The notes under the pieces were generated by a model. It was not told the DNA's origin, did no database searches, and worked only from the letters and a program-made list of their open reading frames with translations. 64,000 bases of DNA from Phalacrocorax aristotelis (Eukaryota > Chordata > Aves > Suliformes > Phalacrocoracidae), in the NCBI RefSeq assembly GCF_949628215.1, contig NC_134279.1, positions 84,377,517 through 84,441,516 on the forward strand, written 5' to 3'. Below, piece by piece: positions 17,417-64,000 of this stretch. The position numbers and the translations under genes were made by a program. Position 1 is the first letter of the stretch; each line of letters starts with the position of its first letter.

Positions 17417-20400
17417 TTAGTCCCCCACGTCGATCTCCTCCTCCGAGAGCTCGGCGGGTGGCGGGGCGGCCGTGCCGGGGCCGGGGCCGGGGGGCCGGGG
17501 CGGGTCGGGCAGCGCCGCCAGCTGCCGGAGGGCGGCGGGGGGCAGCGCCTGCAGCGAGGCCACGTCGGCGCGGAGCTCCTCCAGGTCCCGCTTGAGCTTG
17601 GCGCGGCGGTTCTGGAACCAGGTGATGACCTGGGCCGTGCTGAGCGCCAGCCGCGCCGCCAGCTGGTCCCGGTCCGCCGGCGAGAGGTACTTCTGCCGCA
17701 GGAACCGCTGCTCCAGCTCGAAGATCTGCTGGTTCGTGAACGCCGTCCGCGACTTGCGCCGCTTCTTGCAGGCCGGGCGCTGCCCCAGGGCGCCCAGCGG
17801 CTCCCGACCTGCGGGGAGAGCGGGCTCAGCGCCGCCGGCACCGGCACCGGCACCGGCACCGGCGCCGCGCCGGCCCCCGCCGCCCAGCGCCCACCCCGGC
17901 CCGGCCCCGAAACGCCCGACGCGGTCCAACAGAGCCCGGCCGAGCTAAGCCGAGCTAAACCGGGCCGAGTCGAGCCGAGCCGAGCCGAACCCGGGCCACC
18001 CGAGTTAAGCCGAGCTAAACCGGGCCGAGTCGAGCCGAGCCGAACCCGGGCCACCCGAGCCCGGCCGAGTTAAGCCGAGCTAAACCGGGCCGAGTCCAGC
18101 CCAGTCGAGCCGACGTGAACCCGGGCCACCCGAGCCGAGCCCAGCCGAGTTAAACCGAGCCAGGCGGAGCCGAGCCCAGGCCACCCGAGCCAAACCCAGC
18201 CGGCCCCAGCCCAGCCGAGCTAAGCTGAACCGAGCCCAGCCGGCCCCAGCCTAGATCAGCCGAGCCGAGCTCAGCCGCGCAGACCGCGCCGTGCCCGATC
18301 TCCGGCCGTGCCCGTGACGCCGCACGGGCCCGGTGCCGCTGCTGGGTGCCCGGTGCCGAGAGCCGCCGGCCCCGCCGCGCCCGCCGGGCCTCACGCCGTC
18401 CCCAGCGGCCCCCGTCCCGCCGGTGCCGCCGGCGGCTGCGGCGCGGGGCCGAGCCCACCCGTGTCCCGCGGGGCCCGCACTGCGCCGGGGCCGGCAGCCG
18501 GTAGCGGAGTCCCGGGAGGCGCGGCCGGTCACCCGGGTCCCGCCGGGGCTTTCGCCGAACGGTTTCCCGGGACCGAGCAGACCCCCGGGGCCGGTCCCCG
18601 CCGCCCCGATCCGGCGCTGCCGCCGGCGGAGGAGAGAAGCCCCGAGAGAGGCGGGCTGCGTGTTCGCCGGTAACGGCCCCGCGCCGGCCGCAAGGGCCCG
18701 GTTCCGCCGCCCGCAGGGGGTCCGCTCCCGGGACCCCCCGCCGCGGCCGTCCGTGGGTCTGTCCGGCGGCCTCGGCCGCTCGGCACCGGCGCCGCGGGCA
18801 GTTCGGGCGGTGTCCGTATGTCCGTCCGGGTAACGGGGCTTTACCTCAGTCACGGAACCCCGATCGCTCCCGTTCCTGTCCGTTTGTCCGTAGGGGCAAA
18901 GGGGCGGTTTTGGGTTGGTTTGGTTTTGTTTTTCGTTTACCGCGGAAGCCCCGCTCCACCCGGCCGTGTCTGTCTGTCCCTCCGTCCGACCGGGTAACGG
19001 GGTTTTACCTTAATTCCGGGAACCTCGATCTGCCCTTTCTGTCGGTCTGTCCGTGGGTCCCGGCTCACCTCGCCAGGAAGCGACTGGCGCTTTGTTAGTT
19101 ACGAGAACACCGCTCCACCCGGCCGTGTCCGTCTGTCCGGCCGGGCGACGGGGTTTTACCTCCATGCGGGCAGCCCCGCTCTGTCCCGTTTCTGTCCGTT
19201 TCTGTCCGTCCGGATAAAGGGGATTTTTTTTTTCGTTTATCGCGGTAGCCGCGCTCTGCCCGGCCGTGTCCGTCTGTCCGGCCAGGCGACGGATCTTTTC
19301 GTTAATTACAGTAGCCCCGCTCTGCCCGTCCCTGTCCATCTGTCCAGCCGGGTAACGATTTTTTACCTAAATTCCGGGAGCCCTGCTCTGTCCTCTTTCC
19401 GTCCGTCTGTCCGACCTTGCAACACTACTTTTCGTTAATCATAGGAGCGCCGATCTGCCCGGCCGCGGCCGTCTGTCCGTCCGGTTAAGGGTGGTGGGTT
19501 TTTTTTTTTCTTTTTTTTTTTTTTTTCTTTTCGTTAATCACGGGAGCCTGCTCTGTCCGGCCATGTCCGTCTGTCCGGCCGGTAACAGGGCGGGTTCGGC
19601 AATTATCGGAGCGCCGCTCGGCCCGTCCCTGCCCAGCCGTGGATGGAGTTTTTCGTTAAAGGCGGGAGCCCGGTTCTGCCCATGTCCGTCTGTCCGGCGG
19701 GGCAAAGTTTTTTTCGTTAACGGCGGGAGCTGCGCTCTGCCCGTCCGTGTCCGTCTGTCCGGCTGGGTAACGGTTTGGGGTTTTTTCGTTAATTACAGGA
19801 ATGCCATTCTGCCCGTCCCTGTCCGTGTGTCCGTCCCGGTACGAGGTTTCGGTTTTTTTTTTTCGTTTACGGCGGAAGCCCCACTCTGTCTGTCTGTCCA
19901 GCCGGGTAATGGGTTTTCGTTAACGGTGAAAGCCCCGCTCTGTCTGTCCGTGCGTCCGTCCGTAGAAGGGATTTTTCGTTCACGGCAGTCGCCGCGCTCC
20001 GCCCGCCCGTGTCCGTCTGTCTGTTCGATGTCGGATTTTTTGCCTCGGGCGGGCCGCGGGGTGCCGGTTGCCGCTCGTTCCGTCCATCTGTCCCTCGCTC
20101 TCACGGCGGGTTTCCCCGCTAGGGCCGAGCCGGGAACAGGCGGGGCCGGTTCGTTCCCGCCGGGGCCGGGTCTGCCGGGCCCGGTGCCCCGGGGGAGACT
20201 CCGCCGGGCCGGGTGCACCGTCCGTGAGCGGGGAGCAGCTGCCCTGCCCCTCCGGCAACGGGTTTCTGCCCGAGGACCGATGCCGGCCGGAGTCGCCGCC
20301 GCCGCCGTCCCCGCCGGGGCTCGGGGAGGCCGGCGCCGGCGTCGGTAACGGGTTTTCGTTGCCGGCGGGACCGATCCGCCGCCGCGACCTGTCACGGTCA

Positions 20401-36324: not shown

Positions 36325-39300
36325 CTACCTCCTCTTGTCCTTGATGCTGTAGTGCAGCAGGAGGGGCGCAGGCTGCAAGGCAAGTAGTGGAGGGTCAGGG
36401 CCACTGGCACCCCAACCCCAGGGCAGAGACCCCATACCCCATTCCAGGGCCCCACGGGGGGGGCAGGAGCGACCCCTCCCCACCGGGCCAGGCCCAGGCA
36501 GAACCGTGAACTTGTCCAACCCCTTCTGGGACCCACCACCCTCCTGACCCGCGCGGGAACCGCGGGCCGGCTGCGGCACAGCCATGGGCGCCCCGGGTCC
36601 GCCACTCCAGCGAGCGACATTAATCATCCTTGATTCACCAATTCCCCGCTCCGCCGCCACATCCTCAGCACGGCACTGCCCTGAGCTGCCTCCAGGGAGG
36701 TTCCTCCCGCCAGACCCCACCGAGCCCCCCAGCCTGGATGGGGCCCCTGGGGGCAAATCGCCCATGTCAGGGCTGCAGCGGGTACCTGTCCCTCCAGGGA
36801 CACCCACCTTGCCGAACCAGCGCGAGAGCCAGAGCTGCTTCATCGTCATGTGGTCGGGGAGAGCCTCGTTGTTGAAGAGGATCTGCACCTACGCACGGGG
36901 AGATTGTGTCGGGGGGGCCCACAGCCCCCACCCGAGGCCCATGACCCCCGCCGAGCCCCCACACTCACGTGTTGCAGCGGCAGCTCCAGGCGGTGGCACA
37001 GGACCCTCCGCAGGTGCCGGATCTGTGCCCGCACAGAGCATCTCACGTACTTCTGCTGCAAGGGGCAGAGCGGGTTGGGGGAGTGCAGGGGCCCCCAGCC
37101 CCCCGGGACCAGCGCCGACACATGGCGAGGCCCCAGCTCCCCTCTGCCCACCCCGCCTGGGACCCCACGCACCAAGCTGAGCTCGGAGCAAGAGCTGTGG
37201 GGCCAGGTCTGGGCAGAGCCCGGGGGCTCGGGGCCCGGTGAACTGGCAGGGCGGGCCGCACAGACCCCCGCTCACCTGCAGCACGGCCTTGCTCTTGTCC
37301 TTGCTGGAGCTGCGGAGGGAAGAGAAGGGGCAGCCTGCCCACTCTGGCACAGGGAGGCGGGGGGCTGCGGGCCATACCCCCAACCCCTTCCCTGGACACA
37401 GCCTGGTGCACAGCCCCCACCCACCCGTCACGCAGGCGTGGAGCCGGGGCTGGCAGCTGAGCTGCAGCCATCGATCCCATTACAGCCCCCCAGAGNNNNN
37501 NNNNNNNNNNNNNNNNNNNNNNNNNNNNNNNNNNNNNNNNNNNNNNNNNNNNNNNNNNNNNNNNNNNNNNNNNNNNNNNNNNNNNNNNNNNNNNNNNNNN
37601 NNNNNNNNNNNNNNNNNNNNNNNNNNNNNNNNNNNNNNNNNNNNNNNNNNNNNNNNNNNNNNNNNNNNNNNNNNNNNNNNNNNNNNNNNNNNNNNTTGCG
37701 GAGGCAGTCCCAGCTCGCACAGCTCCTGTCCCCACAGCCCACTGTGCCGGAGCCCGAGCGCCGGGACCTGAGCCGGTTAGAGACACACCCCAACGAGGCA
37801 CCCACCTCTGTGCCCCGTTCCCCCACCTGCCCGCCCCCTGCGTGCAGCAGCCCGGCCGTGGGGAGCTGTGGCCACTCCACCTGCCGGCACAGCCGAGGGG
37901 AAGGTGCAGAGCCCCGACACCAGCGCAGCCAGAGCATCCTGCGGGTCCCTGCACTCGAGCCCCCTAAACCGCGCAGTGCCAGCGCCAAGGCCCTCCCTGG
38001 CTCTGCTCCCCATCCCCGAGCAGCCCCACGTGCTTCCCGAGCAGGGTCCCCGCAGCCCCGACACACAAGCAGGGGCCCTTTGTCCTGCCTTTCTCACTCT
38101 ACAACTGGTTTCGCACGGTAAGAGGTCCTCCCTGCCCTCTCTTCCCAACCCGGCTCTAGCAGCTGCCACGGACGATGGTCAGCATTTGAAGACCCTGACT
38201 TACGGACAGTGTCTCCCACACCCAGCAGGGAGGTGCCCCCCAAAAGCATCCCATTCTCCTGGGCCATTCCCCACACAGCTTGTCCCACATTGCTCTGCAA
38301 GACGCCGGTGCCAGGGACGCCGGACCCTGGCCCTGCCGCCGGGGACACTCACTCTCTTGCAGGCCGGGCACCAGCTTGTAGACAATGTCCTGCATGACAC
38401 GGTCCAACTTGAGATTGAGCAGCGGCTGCGTCTCGTGTATCTTGGTGTTGCACATGGGGCAGTACTTGCTGGTCTGCAGGTACTTGACGATGCAGCTCTT
38501 GCAGACTGTGGCCAGAGGGAGGGGGCGTCGGGGGGGGGCCGAGTCCGTGGCACGGCCCAAACCCCGAGACACCCAGCACTGAGCAGCTGGACACATCCCC
38601 CTCAGCCCCCCCAGGCAGTAGCCGCAGTCCTGGGGCAGCGCCGGACCTGCCGGCGGGGACCCCACGGGACCCCCGCACTGCTTGGAGTCCGCACAGGCAG
38701 CTGCCGCCACCGCGCGGGGACTCACACGTGTGCAGGCACTCGGTGATGGTGGTGGCGTCGATGAAGTACCCGGCGCACAGGCAGCACACGATGTGCTCGT
38801 TCAGCTCCTTCATCTTCACCTTCACCTCCTCCTGCGGAGACAGGCCACTGTCATCCAGCCGCCGCCCTGGCACCCTTTTGGGCCCCCCTGCCCCACGCTC
38901 TTGCCCTCCACAGTGACCCCTGCCCCCACACCCAGTGGGAACCCCCACAGACAGCATGGCAGGGGGGAACAGGGGGCTGCGGGCAGCTCCCACCCCTGCA
39001 CAGGGGGATGGACCCCCCCTCCGGGTGACACAAGGGGACCTGGCTCACCCATGGCTTCGCCCCATGGCCCGGCTGCAGGGCCTGTAGTGGAACTGCCACT
39101 GTCACGGATGGGGGGCTGGGGCTGGCCCCTCTCCTGCTGTGGGGCCCAGCACCTACAGGGATGGGGCCGCCTGGCAGACAGCTCCACAAAGCCCAGCCCA
39201 GCCCCACAGTGCTGAGCCCTGCCCTGCACAGCCCCAAACAGCCCAGCCCTGCCCAGCCCCACAGAGCTGAGCCTTGCCCCACAGAGACAAGCTCCAGAAC

Positions 39301-40689: not shown

Positions 40690-41080
40690 CGGGGTTCCCG
40701 CCGTGCCGGGGGGGGCGGTGCCCGGGGGGGGGGTGGGCTGTCCCGGGGGTCCCGCCGTGCCGGGGGGGCGGTGCCCGGGGGGGGTGGGCTGTCCCGGGGG
40801 TCCCGCCGTGCCGGGGGGGCGGTGCCCGGGGGGGGGTGGGCTGTCCCGGGGGTCCCGCCGTGCCGGGGGGGCCGGTGCCCGGGGGGGTGGGGCTGTCCCG
40901 GGGGGTCCCGCCGTGCCGGGGGGGCGGTGCCCGGGGGGGGGGTGGGCTGTCCCGGGGGTCCCGCCGTGCCGGGGGGGCGGTGCCCGGGGGGGGGTGGGCT
41001 GCTCCCGGGGGTCCCGCCGTGCCGGGGGGGCGGTGCCCGGGGGGGGGTGGGCTGTCCCGGGGGTCCCGCTGCCCTGCGCG
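40690..41080. repeat. GC minisatellite upstream of PCGF1
   Basis: About seven nearly identical copies of a roughly 52-56 bp unit: TCCCGCCGTGCCGGGG, a G-run, CGGTGCCC, a second G-run, then TGGGCTGTCCCG. Copies differ mainly in G-run length. The array can be read open in several frames but has no protein resemblance. Confidence 0.9.
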
Positions 41081-41804
41081 GGGGCGGGGCGGCGGGCTCG
41101 GTTAAGGGGCCGTGACCCCCAGCGCTGGGGCTGGGGTCCCACCGACCGGGTGCCGTGGGCCGCGCTCAGGCTGCGTGGGGCAGGGTGGGGCCGTGCCCCT
41201 GCAACCCCCCCGTACCCCCTAGCCACCCGTGACGTGCCTCCGCAGGGCGACCCCACCATGTCCGTGTGCCGGCGGGACCCTCGGGCCGGCACGGCGTGCG
41301 AGACCCCCACAGAGCGGCCCCGGGGACTATAGAGCCCGCGTGGACCCCGATGGCAGCTTCTCCCCCCCCCGCGAGGGTCCGGCCCGCTGGCGGGCAGCGA
41401 CCCCTCTGCCGGGGCAAGGGCGGGCCGAGGCAGCGGGGGGTGCGGGGCGTGCAGGGGGACACGGGGGGGTGCGGGGGGCTTGGGGGGGGGCACGTAGGGG
41501 GCCGGGGTGGGGCACAGTGGGTGCAGGGGCTGTACTGGGGGGTGGTGGATGGAAGGAGCTGGGCTGGGGACCGGGGTGCAGGGGCTGTACTGGGGTGTGT
41601 GTGTACAGGGGCTTGGGCTGGGGCGGGGTGAGGGGGTGGTTGCTGCCAGTACTGGCTGGGTCGGGGGGTGCCGGTCGCGGGGTGCCGGGTCAGGGGGCGC
41701 TGGCGGTGCCGGGTCGGGGGGTGCCGGGCGGCCTCCCTGGCGCAGCCCGCCGGAGCCTGGAGCCGCGCTAATGGGGGGTGATGGATCAGGCTCTGGAGGG
41801 GAAG

Positions 41805-41905
41805 GAGCGGCCCCGCTAATGCAAAGCAGAAGCCGTTAAAGGCCGTAATGGCTCGTTATGGTTACGATTATTGCTCCAATCCCGAGCAACAAGTGCCGTC
41901 TGGGG
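41805..41905. promoter_or_regulatory. AT-rich candidate enhancer upstream of TLX2
   Basis: CTAATGCAAAGCAG is followed by AGCCGTTAAAGGCCGTAATG and CTCGTTATGGTTACGATTAT, then a CCAAT word. It is a sharp composition change flanked by sequence above 70% GC. Confidence 0.4.
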
Positions 41906-43924
41906 AGACGGCGGGGGCAGCCGGCGCGGGCGAGGCTGCGCGGCCCCGCGGGGGCGGCCGGGAGAGACCCCCGCCCGGGGCCGGGGCCGGCAGCCTGGCA
42001 GCGGCAGCGACCACCCCCCGCCCCCCGCCCCCGCCGGCACCGGCCCGAGCCCTCGCTCCGCTGCTCCCAGGGAGATATTAAATACCGGCGCAGGCGAAGT
42101 GACGCCGTCCCAACCCCGGCATGGGGGCTCCTGGGCACGGCAGCCGCGCCTGCCAGCTCCCGCTCCCCGCTCCCCGCTCCCCGCACCCGCACCCTGCACC
42201 GGGGCAGAGCTGACGGGGGTCTGGCCCCCCCGCGGGCTCCATCCCGGCAGCGCCCGCAGGTAGAGCCCGGCTCACCAGGGCCGTGAGCCCCGCTGTGAGT
42301 GAGCAAGCGAGCAGGGGACGGGGTGCCTCTGGCGTCGCGGGGGGGTGGTGGCTGCGGGGCCCTGGGTGAGCTGGCACCACCCCGGCACTGCCAACCTCCC
42401 GGGCACACAGAGCGCTGGCGGTGGCTGGCCCCCCTCAGCTGGGGTGCTCCTCGATTAGTCCTGGTTATGGTCCCAGTCCTGATCCCGAGCCTGGTCCTGA
42501 TCCTGGTCACCTCAGCTCTTCCAGGTCCCACTCAGTCCAGTGTGGCCCAGTCCAGCAGACCCGGCTGGCCCCCCATGACCAGCTGGAGTGGTTCACCCTG
42601 GCCCCGTGCGGTACAGCCAGCACCAGCTGAGCCCTGGCATCCCCCGGCATCCCCCAGCACTGCCAGCCCACTGTCCCTGCCTCCTGCCCAGGCCAGGCAT
42701 GGCGTGTGGCCGGGCTCCAGCACCCCCAGCCCCTGCACCCCAGGAGGGGACCCCACCGGGAGCTGTAGTGGGGCCCCTTCCCCAGTGCTGGGGTGCCCAT
42801 GGGCAGAGGCGGGCAGGACCAGCCCCCCACCCCGGGGTGATGGTGGCCTCCAGACTTGCCCACCCGCCGCCGGCCACAGCCTGCCCGCCCCTCTGGCCCA
42901 TCCTCGCTGGGATGTGAGAAATGAGGCCGGGGCCGGGGTGACCCCCCGCGTCTGGGAGGGCCCGGCCCCATTTGTACCTGCCAGGAGCAGTTCCTGGGAG
43001 GAACCGTCAGGCTGGGGGGGCTGCAGGGGTCACAGCCGGGCCAGCACAGCCCTGGGGCAGGGCAGCATCGCTCACCTGCCAGCGCTGGACCCAGCACCGG
43101 CTCCACACCCAGCACAGGCTCCACACCCAGCACCAGCACGGCAGCGGTAGCAGCACCGCATCATCCTGACCACTGGCACCAGTACGAGCACCCCATCGAG
43201 CACCAGCGCTGCCACAGCACCAGCACAACGGAAAGCCCTGAGCACCAGCACATCAGCAAGCACTGCCTGCCTGCTGCCCAGCCCCACGCACGCCCTGCGC
43301 ATGCCCCTTGGCACCCCCACGGCCCCTCAGACACCCCGGGTCCCACTGGGCCATGGCCCAGGCCAGCAGGACAGGCTGGTTGTGGCGGTGTTGGCAGAGT
43401 GAGGTGTCTCTGCCGGGAAGGAAGGACTGACGCCCTGGTGAGGGTGGCACTGGGGCAGGGATGGGGCACAAGCGTGTGCACATGCGCGGTGACACTTCCC
43501 AGCTGTGTGGGTGCACGTCCCTGTAGGACCCGCTTGCACTGGCACAGGGCTGCCTGCGCCCCATGTGCCATCTCCTCATCCCCCCCCACCTTGTGCAGCC
43601 CCTGTGCTTGCTGCAGCTGGTCCCCCACACGCTTCCCCCCACTGTCACCCCCCGCCACATGAAGGGCCTGTTCATGTGCATGAGCGCACATTCCCACCCA
43701 TGTGCCACCCTGCTCGTGCCCCCTGCACGCTCGCACTAGCCGGGGTGAGGCTCACACCACTGGGCCGTGGGACCTCCAGGGATGAGGGGCTGAGGAGAGG
43801 CTGTAGGTCCCTCAGTGCTGGGGCAGGGAGCCCACCCACACTCTCTGCTGGTGCCGGGCGCAGGGGGCCGGGGTGCCTGGCAGCCGGCACTCCCTGGGGC
43901 CATGCTTGCCAGCCTGGCACACGT

Positions 43925-49830: not shown

Positions 49831-50815
49831 CCGGGGACCGAGTTGTCTGTTGGCTCCGCGGTGGCGGGCTCGGTGGGGCCGGGTCGGTGCTCCCGGACAG
49901 CGGCAGCTCCGGGGAACGGAGCCTGCACGCCCCGGGAGCGGCGGGCGCGGTGCCGGTGTTTGCGCCCTGGGATCTGTGATAACGGCGCCGAAGCCGGTGG
50001 CCGCTCCGTGCGCCCGAGAGGACGGGGGGGGTCCCGGCTGTGCCTCGCGCGGGCGAGCGGCGGCCCCGGCCCCCCGCACGCTGGGCGTCCCGACGCCGCC
50101 GGACCCTCCGACGGGGCCACGGGCGGAGCCGGGGCGCGGAGAGGCCGCCGGTACCGCGGTGGCTCCGGTGCGCCCCGCGCCGCCCCTTCGTTGCTGCGAG
50201 CCGGGGGACGACCGGCGGCGCGGAACGGGGCCGGAGCGCGGCGGGGGGCCGGGGGGCGTCCCGCGGTCCGACGGGCCGGGCCGTGCGCTCCGGGGTGGCG
50301 GCGGAGGAGGTGCGGGAGCCCCGGCGGGTGGCGGGGGAGGCCGGGCGGAGGTCCGGGGCCGCGGCGGCGGGGGAGAGGCGGGGGGAGACCCGGACCCGGT
50401 GGCGGGGCGTGGCCCCGGGATGCGCGAGCCCCCGCCCCCGGGGGCGCGGGGCTGTCAATCACGGGGCGCGGCCGCCAATCAGGGCGCGGGCGGCCGGGAT
50501 TTTGGCAGGTCCAGATGGAGCGGGACAGAAAAGCGCGCGCCGCCGGGGCTCGCCGCGCACCCGCGCTCCCGCGCCGGGGCCGCCAGCAGCCGCGGGCCAT
50601 GCCCCGGAGCCGGCCACTGCCCCGGAGCCGGCCACTGCCCCCGAGCCTGCCCCGGCCCCGGTCCCGGCCCCGCCGGGCCCGCAGCGGGCACCCCGCTCCC
50701 GCCGCCCCCGCTCCCGCCCCCGCCCCCGCGCGGGGCCGCCCGCCGCCGCCCCCCGCCGCCCCCCGCCGCCCCCCGGCCATGCCCGCGCCCCGCCGGCTCT
50801 GAGCGCGGCCGGGCG
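49831..50815. promoter_or_regulatory. CpG-island promoter and 5' UTR region of TLX2
   Basis: Continuous CpG-rich sequence up to the TLX2 ATG. GCCAATCAGGGCGCGG (a CCAAT box) lies near 50472, and a GTCAATCACGGGGCG word lies just before it. No TATA box is seen. Confidence 0.5.
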
Positions 50816-53800
50816 ATGGAGGCGGCGGCGCTGGCGCGGGAGGGCGGCGGCCAGGGCCCCCCGCCCCACGAGCCCATCAGCTTCGGCATCGACCAGATCC
50901 TCGGCGGCCCCGAGCCCGCCGGCGGCGGAGCGGGGCCGGCCCGGGCGGCGGGGGAGCCCGACTACGGGCTCTACGGCGGCGGCTACGGCCCCGCCTGCTC
51001 GCTCGGCTCCTACAACCTCAATATGAGCATGAACGTGAGCGTCAACGTGACCCCCGCACCCGCCGCGCCGCCCGCCGGGGTCATCCGCGTCCCGGCGCAC
51101 CGGCCCGCGCCCGCTGCGCCGCCCGCCGCGCCGCCGCCGGTGCCGGGGCTCTCGGGGCTCACCTTCCCCTGGATGGAGACGACGCGCCGCATCGCCAAGG
51201 ACCGGCTCTCAGGTGAGCGCCGCGGGACGCTCCCGACGGCTCCCGACGGCTCCGTTGGCTCCGGCGGCTCCCGCGGCCCGGCGAGCGTGGAGCGGGGTCG
51301 GGACGGGCGCTGACCGGGGCCGCGCCGCCCACGGGGACCGGCCGGAGTTGGCCGGGGCACCGTGCGCTCCGCCGTTTCCCGCAGCGCGGGGTTCTCGCCC
51401 GCCTCCCGCCCCGCCCCGTCCTGCCGTGCCCGGGCCGAGCTCCTGCCGCCACCGCCGTCGGGGCCCGCGGAGAGAGGCTCGGGGCTGCCGCAGACACCGG
51501 CAGCTCGGCCGCGGTCCCGCCCCGGCTGCCGGTGGCTCCGAGTGGTGCCCGAGGGGTCCCGCCGTGCTCCGGCCGCGGGCGCTGCTCCATGTCCAGTCTC
51601 TTCCCTGGGCTTGGGGGCACTGGGGGCTGGCTCCATCCCACCCGTAACGGGAAGGCTGCCGGGGCCTGCAGGGAGCCAGGGTGTGGGGTGAGGACAGTGG
51701 CAATGTTGGGAGCAGGGTGCAGGGACCTGCCATGGGGCTGCAGGGCAAAACCTGTCTGCATGCAGGGAGCAGGTGCCCCTGCTCCTTGTGCCAGGGGGGA
51801 GCGGGGGCAGGCAGTGGAGGGTGCCTGTGGGGCACCAGGGACTCAGAGACCCGCGTGTGCGGGGATGGGTGCAGGGCACAAGGTGCCGGTGCCGTGGGAG
51901 AGGCTGGGGCTTGTGTGTGCCGGGGCTGGGGAGGGGCGGGTGGCGATGCAGGTGTCGGGGAGGCGGTGCAGGGCCCTGGTCCTGCTGGTGGGGCTGGGGG
52001 TTGAGCGCCCATGGTGGGGCCAGAGCACCTGGTGCTGGGGCGAGGATGCTGGTGTGGGGTGCTGCCGTTGGGGTGCTGGGTGTGGGGGCTGCACGCCGGG
52101 TGCATGCGGGTGCCGGGGAGCTCTGGCCTGGCTCGGCTCAGGTCGGCTCCTTCCCAAGATGGCGGCGCTGCCACGTCCGCAGTGCACGGCTCCATGCGGG
52201 GACGAGGCTGGGGGCCACGCAGGGCTGGGGGCTGTGCGCTGGCTATGGGGGCTGCTGGGGCCATGTGGGGTGGGAGGCTGGGGGCTGCGGGGGCCCATTC
52301 TGGGCGCCAGCAGAGCCGGGTTCGCCTCCTGGCCCACCCTGCCATCCCGGCGGTGACGAAGCACCGTCCCTGCGCAGGGGCGGCAGGTGACGTCCCCGTC
52401 TCCTGCCTGGCGCCAGCAGTGGGTGGACGGGGCGGCCCCTCCCCGGCACGGGGTCTCCCAGCCGTGGCCATCACTCAGCACCACTGGCCTTGGGGTGGCC
52501 TGCGGGCTGTCGGCATCTGTTCCGAGCAAGGGGCCGCCCCGTGTGGGGAGGGGGTGCGAGGGCCTCCATCCCCCCCGACTGCGCGGCTCCACCTGCGTCA
52601 ACCGCGTCCGCCCCCGCCGGCGGGCAGGCTGGCCTCCTGCCTGCACTGCCTGCATGGGTGCTGGTGGGAGGGTCTGCTGGGCGCCAGGCTGTCCCTGGGG
52701 CTGCTGTGGGGTCTGCCCCACGCCCCCACAGCATAGGGTGCTGGGGCCCCATGACAGCCCCACAGGCCCGGCCATGTGCAGCCCTGCCCATGTGGTGCCA
52801 GCAATGGCGAGGGCCATGGGGCTGTGGCTCAGCCGTGGGCCGCTGGCAGAGCAGGAGTGGAGTGGGAGCTGGGTGCTGCGCCCTGGCCGAGCTCTCACCT
52901 TCCTCCACACCCCTTCGCTGTCCTGACATTCCCTGTGGCTCCAGCTGCGCCTGGGGCTGGGACACGGCATGCCGACCTCGCTGTCCCTGGCTCACGCCCC
53001 GGCCGTGCAAGGACAGCCCCTTGCCTGGCCCCCATCACTCAGACGCTGCTGGCGTGCGGAGGGAGATGTCGGCCACCTCCCAATGGCTTCTGGGGTCCTG
53101 TACCTTCCCCAGGAGGGCTGAGAAGCCATTAGTGTTGTGCTGCGCAGGCTCCTCTGGGGCTGCAGCAGGGCTTGGTGTGTGGGGAAGGGTGGGTTTGTGC
53201 TGCTGGAGCCTTGCCGGCCCTGGGACCAGGCCTGCTGGGGGAGCGGTCAGGCCATGGTGGTGGGGTGGGGATGGGCCGTCACACCATGTCTTGAGCTGCC
53301 CTGTGCATCACTGGGCTCTGGGAGCAGGTGGGGACAATTCGGGGTCTCCTCTCCTCCCTGCCAGGCAGCACTGGTAGTCCCCAGTCCCCACAGCCCTCCC
53401 CGAGCTCTCTGTCCCCATGGCCCCAAGCATCTGAGTATCCGCCCTGGGCCCCCGTGCTGCCGGGCTGCTCCCACTCCTGCCCTGCCCTCAGCAGGGGCTC
53501 TGCCTGGCCCCTGCCGTGTGGCAGCCTTGTGGCAGGGCGCTTTGCCTGAGGCTCCCCTGAGCAGCCCCTCACCCCTGCTCTGCCCACAGCTGCGCTGTCA
53601 CCCTTCGCGGCGACCCGGCGGATTGGGCACCCCTACCAGAACCGCACGCCGCCCAAGCGGAAGAAGCCACGCACCTCCTTCAGCCGGGTGCAGATCTGCG
53701 AGCTGGAGAAGCGCTTCCACCGCCAGAAGTACCTGGCGTCGGCCGAGCGTGCCACCCTGGCCAAGGCCCTCAAGATGACGGATGCCCAGGTCAAGACCTG

Positions 53801-54487
53801 GTTCCAGAACCGCCGCACCAAGTGGAGGTAACAGGGCCGGCCCCGGGGCGGCCGCTGCAACTCTAACCCCCTGCCTCCCTCCGGCAGCCACCCCCCGCCG
53901 TGGCTGTGCCCCCTGGGAGAGGCTGGGCTGGGGGAGATGGGGTGCCCATCCCTGCTGCATCCCCTGTGGCCGGCTGGGTGAGGCACAGTGCTGCCGAGGG
54001 AGGGATGGGCAGCAGGGCAGAGGCTGCGCGACATTGCCGCACGGGCACACAGCAGTGTCAAGAGAGGGACGGGGCTGTGGGGCAGAGGCTGTGGGGCATT
54101 TCTGCACCAGCACACTGGTGCTGAGAGGGATGGGCTACAGAGCATTGCCAGTGGTGCCAGAGCAGGACAGGGCTGCACGGCACTGCCAGACTGGCACACA
54201 GCGGTGCCGAGAGAGGGACGGGCTGCAGGGCAGAGGCTGTGGGGCAGTGACGGGCCGTGTGTGCTGGCAGGAGGCAGACGGCGGAGGAGCGCGAGGCGGA
54301 GCGCCAGCAGGCCAACCGCCTGATGCTGCACCTGCAGCAGGAGGCCTTCCAGAAGAGCCTGAGCCAGCCGCTGCCCCAGGACCCGCTCTGCATGCACAAC
54401 TCCTCCCTCTACGCCCTGCAGAACCTGCAGCCCTGGGCTGAGGACAACAAGGTGACGTCCGTCTCAGGGGTGGCCTCCGTGGTGTGA
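50816..54487 (+). CDS. TLX2: TLX2, T-cell leukemia homeobox transcription factor
   Basis: Three exons, 50816-51212, 53590-53827 and 54271-54487, join in phase to 283 aa. The N terminus holds the eh1-like repression motif [12 protein letters not shown]. Next comes [12 protein letters not shown], then [18 protein letters not shown], then [20 protein letters not shown] leading into the homeodomain. The recognition helix carries the TLX hallmark threonine ([15 protein letters not shown]). The C terminus keeps [19 protein letters not shown] and ends [12 protein letters not shown]2 is a nuclear regulator used in neural-crest and enteric neuron development in mammals. It is named TLX2, not TLX1 or TLX3, from its position between PCGF1 and DQX1. 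Part of exon 1 ([14 protein letters not shown]) resembles the other family members as well. Confidence 0.93.
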
Positions 54488-55921: not shown

Positions 55922-56885
55922 ATGATTGTGGAACCGCTGCGGCGCCGCCGCAGAGCCGCCGGGATGAGCACGGCCGAGGGCTGGCCCCGGTCCCGGTGGG
56001 ACGGCGGCGGCCAGGCGGTGCTGCGTGCCCGTGCCGAGGCTGCCGGGTACCGGAGGCTGCTGCGCACCCGCGCTGCCGAGGTGGAGGCGCTGCGCGGGGC
56101 CGTGGGCGCGTTGCACCGGCAGCTGGAGGGGCTGCGGGACCGGCGTAGCGGGGAGCTGGCCAAGTACCAGGTGCGGGGGGGCGGGCACGGGGGGGCACGG
56201 GGGGGGGTGGGATTGGGTTTGGGAAGGGGCAGACGGGAGGGTTGTGGGCATGGGGGGGGGCGAGAGGAGAGCCCAGGCTCTGGCGCCCGGACTCGCGGAG
56301 GGCTGGGGAGAGGGCTGGGTCTGGGGAGGGGGGATAGGGGTCCGGGGGGTGAGGGAGGACGGGGGCCAGGTCGGGGCTGGAGGGGAGGGTCCGGGCGGGG
56401 CAGCGGGACGGGGACCGGGATGGGACTGGGGAGGGGGGCTCAGGTGGGGTGAGGGTCTGGGGTTCAGCGCTGGGCGGGGGTCGGGATGGGAGCGGAGAGG
56501 GGGATCAGGTGGGCTGGGGAGTGGGATCCGTGCGGGTCGGGGGCCGGGTCAGGGGCGGGGGGGTCCTTGCGGAGCGGGGCGGGGGCCGGCGCGGGGGTCT
56601 CGGGCGTTGCTGACGGCCCGGCCGGCAGGAGCGGGTGGCGGAGCTGGAGCGGGAGATCGGCGAGGCGGAGGCGGAGATGGCCCGGTGCCTGCGGGAGTAC
56701 CCGGCGCTGCTGCGGCTGCGGATGGCGCTGGAGGCGGAGATCGCCGCGTACCGGTACGCGGCGGGGGGGGGGGGGGGGGCGGGGGGCCGGGGCGGGCGGG
56801 ACGCGGGGCTCAGCCCGGGCCTGCCTCTTGCAGAGAGATGCTGGAGGGCGAAGAGCTGCGCCTGGGCTGCCTGGCCCCACCGTGA
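55922..56885 (+). CDS. Very short type IV intermediate-filament protein (alpha-internexin/neurofilament-like)
   Basis: Three exons, 55922-56170, 56629-56753 and 56834-56885, join in phase. ATG 55922 gives 141 aa and ATG 55964 gives 127 aa. The protein aligns by eye with the second half of coil 2[21 protein letters not shown], then [20 protein letters not shown], then the helix-termination motif [13 protein letters not shown], ending after eight more residues. Introns fall after the codons for KYQ and inside the R of AAYR, and the middle exon is 125 bases. These are the positions I recall for neurofilament and INA genes (type IV). Head, coil 1, coil 2A and tail are absent, and no upstream exons for them were found. 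It could be a real mini-filament protein or the surviving end of a larger gene. An AATAAA follows at 57236. Confidence 0.75.
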
Positions 56886-58368: not shown

Positions 58369-60607
58369 TCAGTGGACTCTGAGCCGGTGCTTCTGGGCTG
58401 CATCGATGTCCTGCCAGGCGCTCCAGGGGCTCCAGGCGTGGCTGGCGTAGGGGTCCTGGCAGCTGATGCGCACCCGCTGTACGCGCTCCTGCAGCCACAC
58501 CTCTGTGTCCTCCATGTACTTGTCAACCTGCAAAGCAGGGCAGGTTGTGGCCTCAGGGAGCACCCCAGCCCCGCGGCGGGGGGCAGCCAGCATGGGTGCC
58601 ACTGGAGGCGAGGCTGCAGGGAAGGTGGGGCAGGGCAGGGGCAGGGCTCGGCGCTGGGTGTCAGGGGTGGCACGTCCCCAACCCGGGCGGTGACGCTGCC
58701 TTGCGTGGGCAGCGCTGGGTGGCAGAAGCAGAGGTGACAGCCAGGAGTGACAATTCACTGCCCCAAGGAGAGAAGCAGCGTAGCAGGGAGGGGGGGCCAT
58801 TGCTGAACCCCTGGCAAGTCCCTTTCCCAATGGCACCCCTGGGTGGAGGGAAGAGCTCAGGCTGGGGCTGGGGCAGGGGCGGGGTGGTTGCAGGGCAGGG
58901 TGGGCGCAGCAGAGCGAGGATGTGGAGTGGCATGTGCAAGGCAGGCTGGGCATGGGCGTCCTGCAGTTACCTGGGTGCCGTTGGGGAGTTCATACTGCAG
59001 CCAGTAAAGCAGAGTGAAGTAGGACTTGGGGAGTGGCCAGGAAGCTGGGGGGGCCCAGGCCAGGTGGAGCTGCTCCCCCTGCCACTGCACGGTCAGCCCC
59101 TGCGGTGGGTTGGGCCGCACTGCGGACAGAGCAGGGCTCAGCACAGGGCAGTGCTGCCCACACAACCCCCAGTGCCCTGAGGATGCCCCCCGGACCATAC
59201 TGCTGATGGTCTGAGCTCACCGATGTCGCGGACGAAGAAGGGGATGGAGAAGTTGATGTGGGAGGTGTTCGAGAGCCCCTCCAACTGCAGTTGCAGTGGG
59301 TGCAGCTCCTCAGCGAAGGGGCAGAAGGAGGCGTCCACAAAGCTGACACTGAACTGGCCGCGGTGGCCGGCCACCAGCACCCACTCCCCCAAGGAGCCAT
59401 CACTGCTGGGGAGAGGCAGCCGTGAGGGCTGGGCGGTCATGGGGCTGGGGTCGGGTTGAGGGGTCCCCGGGGCACTGACCTGCGTGTGAGGCGGGCACGG
59501 AAGACGGCAGAGTGGTCGCTGATCCAGGAGCAGTGGAAGGAGCCTTGGTAGGACTCAGCCTGGCAGGAGATGTTCATCTGCTCCTCGCCTGGTGGGGCCG
59601 AGGGGCACCGGCTCAGGGGCTGCACAGGGCCAGCAGCAGTGCCCCTTCCCCATATGGCACAGGTGAGGCTGCCCCTGTGGCTCCTCCCAGCCGTGCACAG
59701 CCCTGCTGAGTGCATCCCCACAGCCCCATGGGCTGGGCACAAACATCTGCAGATGCATGGGCATCTCCTGGTCCCCAGCCTGCCCTCAAATCTCCGCATC
59801 CCACCCATCACCCCCCATCCACCCCACTCAGACCTGGCTCTCCCACCCAGCCGTGCCAGCCCCCCCAGCCCCACGTACGGGTGCTGCTGACCACCACGTA
59901 GGTGGAGTCCAGCAGGACGTTGCTGGCCCAGCAGCTGTAGTTGCCCGTGGCTGGCATGTCCAAGCCACGGATGGTGAGAGTCTGTCCATTGGCCACGACC
60001 TCGGCCATGGGCTCTGTCTCCCCATTCTGTGTCCAGGTCACTTGCTGCTCCGAGGTGTTGCATTTCAACACCACGTCCCCATTCAGTTTCCCCACCTGAT
60101 CTGGAGATGAGGGGCAGAGACTGGGGTCAGAGGTGGGCTGTGGTGTGGGCAGCCTGTCCCCTACCCCACGATGGGACTGGGTGCCCCCTCGTCCCGACAC
60201 ACCACATCCATCCTTCCCTAAGGTCCCCATGATGCTCCCACATGCCACATCCATGCCCACCCTGCCCCATCACCCTAAGTCCATCCCCACTTGCCCCACT
60301 GCCCCACATCCATCCCCATGCTGCCTCACCCCACTCCATCACTCTCATGCCCATCCTCTAACACCCCCCCCCCAAGAAGAGCTGCTCCAACCCAGGATCT
60401 CATCACCCCATATCAGAGGGATGTGGGATGTGGCTGCTCCCTGCTCCCCCCAGCTGCTCTGTGGGTCCTGCAGTCCCCCCCCCCCACTGGGGTGTCCCCC
60501 CTCCAGGACCCCTGTTCCCAGGCGGGGCAGGACTCACACTTCGGGGGGAAGGCAGTCAGAGCATCTGCAGGAGTCAGGCACAGCAGCAGACCCAACAGCA
60601 CCAGCAT
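58369..60607 (-). CDS. Secreted IL-12 p40-like cytokine subunit (IL12B paralog)
   Basis: Six coding exons join in phase to 296 aa: 60538-60607, 59879-60100, 59480-59588, 59221-59402, 58971-59119, 58369-58527. A signal peptide (MLVLLGLLLCLTPADA) precedes an Ig-like D1 domain (KLNGDVVLKC...GNYSCWAS). D2 follows, with ISCQAESYQGSFHCSW, DASFCPFAEELH and the hallmark NFSIPFFVRDI. D3 holds PNPPQGLTVQW, SYFTLLYWLQYELPNGTQ and the WSxWS motif WSPWS. There is no transmembrane segment. IL12B pairs with p35 (IL-12) or p19 (IL-23) and engages IL12RB1. The presence of D1 excludes EBI3. Low similarity across D1 and altered cysteines argue for a paralog, not IL12B itself. ATG immediately follows the acceptor of exon 2, as in IL12B. 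Several N-glycosylation sequons are present (NTS, NYS, NIS, NFS, NGT). Confidence 0.9.
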
Positions 60608-63162: not shown

Positions 63163-64000
63163 TCACTGCAGCACGCAGACTTCCCTCTCCTCGTCCTCCC
63201 TGCTAGCTGCCTCTCCCAGCGGCTCTGGCACTGCTGGCACGTCCTCCGCGGCCACCACCTTCTCCCGCAGCTCCATCAGCAGGTCGCGGCTCTCGCTGGG
63301 TGGGAGGTTGCTCAGGTAGTACTGGGGTGCCAGCTCCACCAGCCTGCGGAGACAGGGGGTCAAGGAGGGGCAGCCAGGCCCTAGGGCCTCCCTGGGGCAG
63401 CCTCCTCTGTCCCCTGCATGGGGACAGTCCCCCACCTGCCCCACCTTCCCCCAGGAGAGGGGGCCCAGGGCACGCATCACTCCCCAGAGATGCACTCCCA
63501 GGCCAGTGCCAGCTCTGGAGCCAGGCACAGACGCAGCCCCGGTGCAACCCATCCCCCCTGTCCCTGAGGTCCTCACATTTGGGGCTGGATCTCCGAGACC
63601 ACGCGGAGGCAGTTGTCCTGCGAGATGGTGAACTCGTGGTAGAGGACCCAGGGGGGCAGGCGCTGGGGGGGCTGCCGCAGCAGATAGCAGCAGGCAGGGG
63701 GCAGGTGGGCCACGTGTTTGTGTGTCAGCATCACGTAGTTGCCAGAGCCGTCGATGTCCCTGGCCACCTGGGGAGTGGAGTGGGAGGGGAGCGGGGCTGG
63801 CTAGCACGACCCCCGCCCCACAGCTGGGCCCCTCGCGGCCCCCCGGCCCACCTTGAGGAAGTAGCCGGAGATGAGCGCTCTCTGGATGTTGAGCACATTG
63901 GCATCGGTGCCGAAGGCGGGGGGCGAGACGGGCAGCTCGATGCGCTGCATCACCTCCAGGAGCTCTGCCCGCACGATGCCCGCCAGCCGCAGCGCCTCCC
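63163..64000 (-). CDS. DQX1: DQX1, DEAQ-box RNA-dependent ATPase, 3' end only
   Basis: Minus-strand exons: 63852 to beyond the right edge, 63577-63767 and 63163-63343, in phase. The first visible exon reads [12 protein letters not shown]-like sequence ([16 protein letters not shown]), then [20 protein letters not shown], then [20 protein letters not shown] and QLAP-type [20 protein letters not shown]. This is the C-terminal OB-fold region of the DHX15/DHX32/DQX1 helicase group. The end is acidic and short ([11 protein letters not shown]). The catalytic ATPase motifs lie outside the window. DQX1 is chosen over DHX32 and DHX15 because TLX2 and DQX1 are neighbours in human. The direction, with TLX2 on plus and this gene on minus, also fits. 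Confidence 0.85.

Follow-up and report, generated by a model that had tools for sequence, protein, structure and literature searches.

Organisation of the IL12BL locus

The window analysed here is a stretch of 64,000 nucleotides from the European shag genome (contig C4, 84377517-84441516). A gene for an interleukin-12 subunit beta-like protein, referred to as IL12BL, is located on the minus strand at 60607-58369, with TLX2 on one side and DQX1 on the other. Splicing of the window DNA gives six coding exons and a product of 296 amino acids, which is identical letter for letter to the NCBI protein "interleukin-12 subunit beta-like" of Phalacrocorax aristotelis. The first-pass annotation, which had reported a second complete p40 gene at 58369..60607, was thus right in coordinates and content, the strand being minus. 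Exon 1 (60538..60607) carries the ATG and the leader peptide and ends at a GTGAGT donor. Exon 2 (59879..60100) encodes the Ig-like domain D1, which in contrast to that of IL12B has neither the W37 loop nor F82, and exon 3 (59480..59588) the first part of D2. The remaining D2 is encoded by exon 4 (59221..59402), together with the inter-chain cysteine C161 (codon 59323-59321) in the motif FCPFAEE; an alternative acceptor of this exon at 59405 also keeps the frame. Exon 5 (58971..59119) encodes the first part of D3, and exon 6 (58369..58527) the rest of D3 with WSPWS and the stop codon.

All five introns are of the GT-AG type, the exon start phases are 0,1,1,2,1,0 and there is no internal stop, so the consistent splice phases and open frame claimed earlier were confirmed by splicing of the window exons. 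The six junctions of the same claim are in part supported: five introns lie between the coding exons, and a sixth is only probable. An acceptor-like AG is found immediately 5′ of the ATG in both IL12BL and IL12B of the shag, and because this AG abuts the ATG, IL12BL probably has a 5′ non-coding exon and a further intron. The GC3 of the coding sequence is 0.84 against a GC2 of 0.44.

TLX2 (50816..54487, plus strand; homeodomain match of 76.7 bits) lies about 4 kb from IL12BL. Beyond IL12BL, open reading frames on the minus strand at 63166..63999, one of which has an OB_NTP_bind match of 41 bits (cut-off 29.5), represent the 3′ part of a gene that extends past the window and is presumably DQX1. 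Two more genes on the minus strand serve as synteny anchors: a homeobox exon at 17420..17944 (homeodomain match of 74 bits), presumably LBX2, and a gene at 38159..39044 with RING-finger matches only below the curated cut-offs, which we assume to be PCGF1.

Between TLX2 and IL12BL, a three-piece reading frame of about 126 residues (55964-56885, plus strand) resembles coil 2B of vimentin (E 1.9e-19), with a Pfam Filament match of 38.7 bits that falls just below the cut-off of 40. Having neither head nor coil 1, it may be a headless intermediate-filament gene or a remnant of one. Stretches of about 80% G+C occur at about 41000-42000 and at 50001-52000, the latter covering the promoter and first exon of TLX2.

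Predicted protein and its family

The window protein matches IL12p40_C (PF10420) with 47.5 bits (cut-off 25) and Ig_3 with 42.7 bits (cut-off 30). Its closest solved structures by sequence are p40 chains of IL12B (E 3e-27), and p40 is also the nearest fold to the structure model of IL12BL. Both NFSIPFFVRDI and WSPWS are present, and a signal peptide and the absence of a membrane anchor were judged by eye from the sequence. IL12BL is predicted to be a secreted Ig-FN3-FN3 protein of the p40 family; the Pfam matches, the motifs and the p40-like model agree with the earlier assignment of a D1-D2-D3 architecture, its signal peptide being judged by eye. Among 45 aligned members (29 IL12BL and 16 IL12B), 44 match IL12p40_C at E 0.001, the one exception being P0080 of Sceloporus.

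IL12BL has in common with IL12B the six exons and their phases, the D1-D2-D3 layout, IL12p40_C, the inter-chain cysteine and the predicted fold. EBI3, the beta subunit of IL-27 and IL-35, in contrast has no Ig-like D1 and matches PF24031, the family of the N-terminal FN3 domain of IL27B, instead of IL12p40_C. No PF24031 match was obtained for the window protein at E 0.1, and the turtle IL12BL reaches 14.2 bits for this family against a cut-off of 42; likewise, IL12p40_C has no match in human EBI3 or human CNTFR at E 0.1. A relationship of IL12BL with EBI3 is ruled out on domain content, whereas the tree test alone, in which IL12BL and EBI3 were constrained as one clade, did not reject it (p 0.07). 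The Ig-FN3-FN3 layout is also common to the alpha receptors CNTFR, IL11RA and IL6R, and by eye the W37 loop is absent from CNTFR as it is from IL12BL; however, CNTFR is the weaker sequence match (E 1.7e-13 versus 3e-27 for p40).

A separate IL12B in the shag genome

A search of the whole assembly (1.279 Gb in 352 contigs) with the window protein gave, at E 0.001, the six exons of IL12BL and nothing else. With IL12B of a rail as the query, a separate and intact IL12B of 315 residues was located at C8:25029608-25036922. The first-pass annotation had raised the case that the window gene might be the only IL12B of the species, and the finding on C8 answers it. The two shag genes share six coding exons and the phases 0,1,1,2,1,0, and their products are 25.7% identical. 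Origin of IL12BL as a retrocopy is ruled out, since its introns are retained.

Distribution of IL12BL

Protein searches listed at least 79 proteins of the IL12BL type (75 plus 4 new), many of them partial. Orthologs were found in ratites and tinamou (ostrich, kiwi, rhea, emu and tinamou), in ducks, swan, quails and many Neoaves, in turtles (42-50% identity) and in the squamates Hemicordylus, Lacerta and Sceloporus. The ratites, waterfowl, Neoaves and turtles include relatives of full length. Among the matches listed in these word-based searches there was no IL12BL from an amphibian, a fish or a crocodilian; one ortholog search scored the 7996 candidates sharing most words, and the absence of fish there is no evidence of absence. 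For IL12B, the best 120 of 167 matches comprised 91 sauropsid and 29 mammalian sequences, and mammals were represented among them by canonical IL12B only.

Partial or oddly modelled IL12BL sequences (such as P0067, P0048 and P0057) were excluded from the residue table and the tree. The former contains 29 IL12BL rows along with IL12B from 11 sauropsids, 6 mammals and the shag model; the latter contains 19 IL12BL rows along with IL12B from 13 sauropsids, 6 mammals and the shag model. Between ostrich and shag the identity is 71.6% for IL12BL and 85.7% for IL12B, and on these sequences the evolution of IL12BL is the quicker. The conservation across birds, turtles and squamates lends support to the earlier impression that the gene looks functional.

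The IL12BL models of chicken (P0048, P0057) and turkey (P0056) are partial or frame-shifted and those of quails are of full length; the broken models may reflect annotation errors or, in some galliforms, a recent decay of the gene. The squamate copies (P0077 of Lacerta, P0080 of Sceloporus) have long branches, indicating fast evolution, and the squamate sequences carry additional D2 cysteines beside the inter-chain one, which are possibly an ancestral disulfide lost in the bird and turtle copies.

Residues at the alpha-chain and receptor interfaces

The inter-chain cysteine (C199 of the human precursor) is conserved in all 29 IL12BL rows, and a loose motif around it was found in 53 of the best 53 matches. 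The residues Y136, Y268 and D312 of human p40, which we take to be those of the alpha-chain pocket, are kept in IL12BL as in IL12B: the aspartate of D312 and the tyrosine of Y136 in 29/29 rows, and the tyrosine of Y268 in 28/29. A literature search found no publication that confirms this pocket assignment. Other cysteines differ between the two proteins. The C-terminal one (human C327) is present in 18/18 IL12B rows and missing in 29/29 of IL12BL, and the pair C170-C193 of IL12B is not found at those columns in any of the 29 IL12BL rows, with squamate rows having cysteines nearby.

The surface that faces the receptor is different. W37 occurs in none of the 29 IL12BL rows, against 18/18 in IL12B, and F82 likewise in 0/29 against 17/18. 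According to the available text of a study of p40, W37 and F82 are its contacts with IL-12Rbeta1, and in mouse p40 W37 is indispensable (PMC8571081). With these hot spots missing, IL12BL is therefore regarded as a paralog within the p40 family and not as an IL12B. The proposal of the first-pass annotation, that an additional beta subunit of the IL-12/IL-23 system is encoded here, holds as far as a second p40 gene is concerned; given the lost hot spots, this subunit may be part of another heterodimer instead of IL-12/IL-23 itself.

Origin of IL12BL

Three TLX-type homeodomain matches of at least 94% identity are present in the shag genome, on C4 (the window), at C8:31063995 and at C12:8421387. 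In a comparison with human TLX3 and TLX1, TLX3 is the best fit for the gene on C8 (100% across the homeodomain stretch and 93% across the last exon), and TLX1 for the gene on C12, across its first and last exons. By this assignment, the shag IL12B lies 6.0 Mb from TLX3. Human IL12B is on chromosome 5q. The gene order in the window, several of the gene names being presumed, equals the human order with IL12BL added between TLX2 and DQX1. In humans the genes follow one another as TTC31 and LBX2, PCGF1, TLX2 and DQX1, and the chicken Tlx3 lies in a region corresponding to human chromosome 5, as described in the available part of a study that assigns LBX2/TLX2 and LBX3/TLX3 to paralogons which arose as sisters in the early vertebrate genome duplications (PMC2446394); IL12B is not mentioned in that part. 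Given this sister relationship of the TLX2 and TLX3 regions, IL12BL is best read as an ohnolog of IL12B from the early vertebrate genome duplications that is absent from mammals. On this synteny, it is not a bird novelty but, most likely, an old sister that IL12B acquired through genome duplication.

In the tree, the 20 rows of IL12B, from mammals and sauropsids alike, were separated from IL12BL with a support of 99/99, and the support of the IL12BL clade was 87/74. This topology agrees with a split of IL12BL from IL12B that predates the radiation of amniotes. The dating of IL12BL rests mainly on synteny, because the AU tests of a sauropsid-only duplication, considered below, were weak.

Extra p40 genes beside the IL12B type are also found in fish, which have p40a, p40b and p40c; p40c diverged before the split of p40a and p40b, and carp p40c has no inter-chain cysteine (PMC2946394, available text). 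IL12BL differs from the latter in keeping this cysteine. IL12BL might correspond, in sauropsids, to fish p40c; no fish sequences were among the matches listed in three protein searches. In a survey of the IL-12 family in 405 species, duplication of IL12B and EBI3 is given as one cause of high gene numbers in ray-finned fish, and no bird paralog of IL12B is described in the text available from it (PMC12162339). Nor was a publication on a bird or reptile paralog found in our literature search of open-licence papers. The locus has already been annotated by NCBI; as far as these searches go, its origin and residue pattern are undescribed.

Proposed function and alternative readings

The reading that we favour, and consider fairly probable, is that IL12BL is a functional ohnolog of IL12B, kept by sauropsids and lost by mammals, which acts as a secreted beta subunit paired with an alpha chain and has an altered receptor face. 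IL12BL would have been born with the TLX2/TLX3 paralogons, and would encode a secreted beta subunit of three domains. By analogy with p40, the elbow between D2 and D3 would dock an IL-12-family alpha subunit of four helices (p35- or p19-like), and C161 would lock the two chains covalently. The resulting heterodimer would then recruit another shared receptor, or grip IL-12Rbeta1 differently; because D1 is without both aromatic hot spots, another receptor or another mode is the most likely one. The altered surface suggests an immune signal read through a different receptor, and expression in the immune system would be expected. A more specific form of this proposal, which we put forward tentatively, assigns IL12BL as beta subunit to an undescribed heterodimer of the IL-12 family in birds and reptiles; this heterodimer would make no p40-IL-12Rbeta1 contact and would have been lost by mammals.

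Mammalian IL-12 biology rests on a single p40. A conserved second p40, with the alpha-chain cysteine kept and the hot spots gone, would mean that the IL-12/IL-23 biology of birds and reptiles includes an unassigned part, and that studies of Th1 and Th17 responses in birds that target IL12B alone may overlook part of the system. The undescribed heterodimer, if it exists, would be a further IL-12-type cytokine lost by mammals. With IL12BL it can also be tested which p40 surface came first, and whether fish p40c, the outlier, shares the same ancient lineage.

Of the other readings, the one that fares best, though we hold it to be doubtful, is that IL12BL is a classical extra p40, with p35 or p19 as its partner and the normal IL-12/IL-23 receptors, including IL-12Rbeta1, as its route of signalling. 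Trout offers a parallel, where p35/p40b and p35/p40c are both bioactive despite only 24% identity between p40b and p40c (PMC4929537, available text), but the loss of W37 and F82 in 29/29 rows, the former being mandatory in mouse p40, is hard to reconcile with the normal receptor.

It is unlikely that IL12BL is a soluble antagonist, which as C161-linked homodimers (p80-like) or as monomers would block or buffer the receptors or alpha chains of the IL-12 family, given that the conserved residues of the presumed pocket suggest an alpha partner. The retention of C161 would fit such a role, as would the antagonism of IL-12 and IL-23 that lone p40 exerts as a covalent homodimer via IL-12Rbeta1 (PMC8571081, available text); however, this known antagonism operates via the IL-12Rbeta1 contact, for which the hot spots are absent in IL12BL.

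About equally improbable is a younger origin, in which IL12B was duplicated in sauropsids only and the copy moved beside TLX2, where it would function as a beta subunit with an altered receptor. The AU test gave p 0.046 with two outgroups and p 0.136 in a smaller set with CNTFR as the only outgroup (without Lacerta, Sceloporus, Gallus IL12B and EBI3), which is no firm rejection, and no ortholog from outside the sauropsids was among the matches listed. On the other hand, this reading requires that chance placed the copy next to TLX2, in the very sister paralogon of the IL12B region; the copy is only 25.7% identical to IL12B of the same bird, and mammalian and sauropsid IL12B group together with the support given above.

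That IL12BL is a pseudogene or a non-functional relic, as the broken-looking chicken models might imply, is very improbable in view of the intact six-exon frame in the shag, the presence of relatives of full length among ratites, waterfowl, Neoaves and turtles, and the loose cysteine motif retained throughout the best 53 matches. Its identity as the one-to-one IL12B ortholog of the species, in favour of which there is family membership and nothing further, is ruled out for practical purposes by the intact IL12B on C8 and by the rejection of a clade of bird IL12B with bird IL12BL (p 5.8e-5).

A further cysteine of D3, C267, is encoded by exon 6 (codon 58461-58459, in the context SCQDP or RCQDP) and has no obvious partner. 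In one alignment 9 of 10 rows have it, with Hemicordylus as the exception, and the IL12B rows displayed in the residue table lack it; it could be a second inter-chain link of IL12BL.
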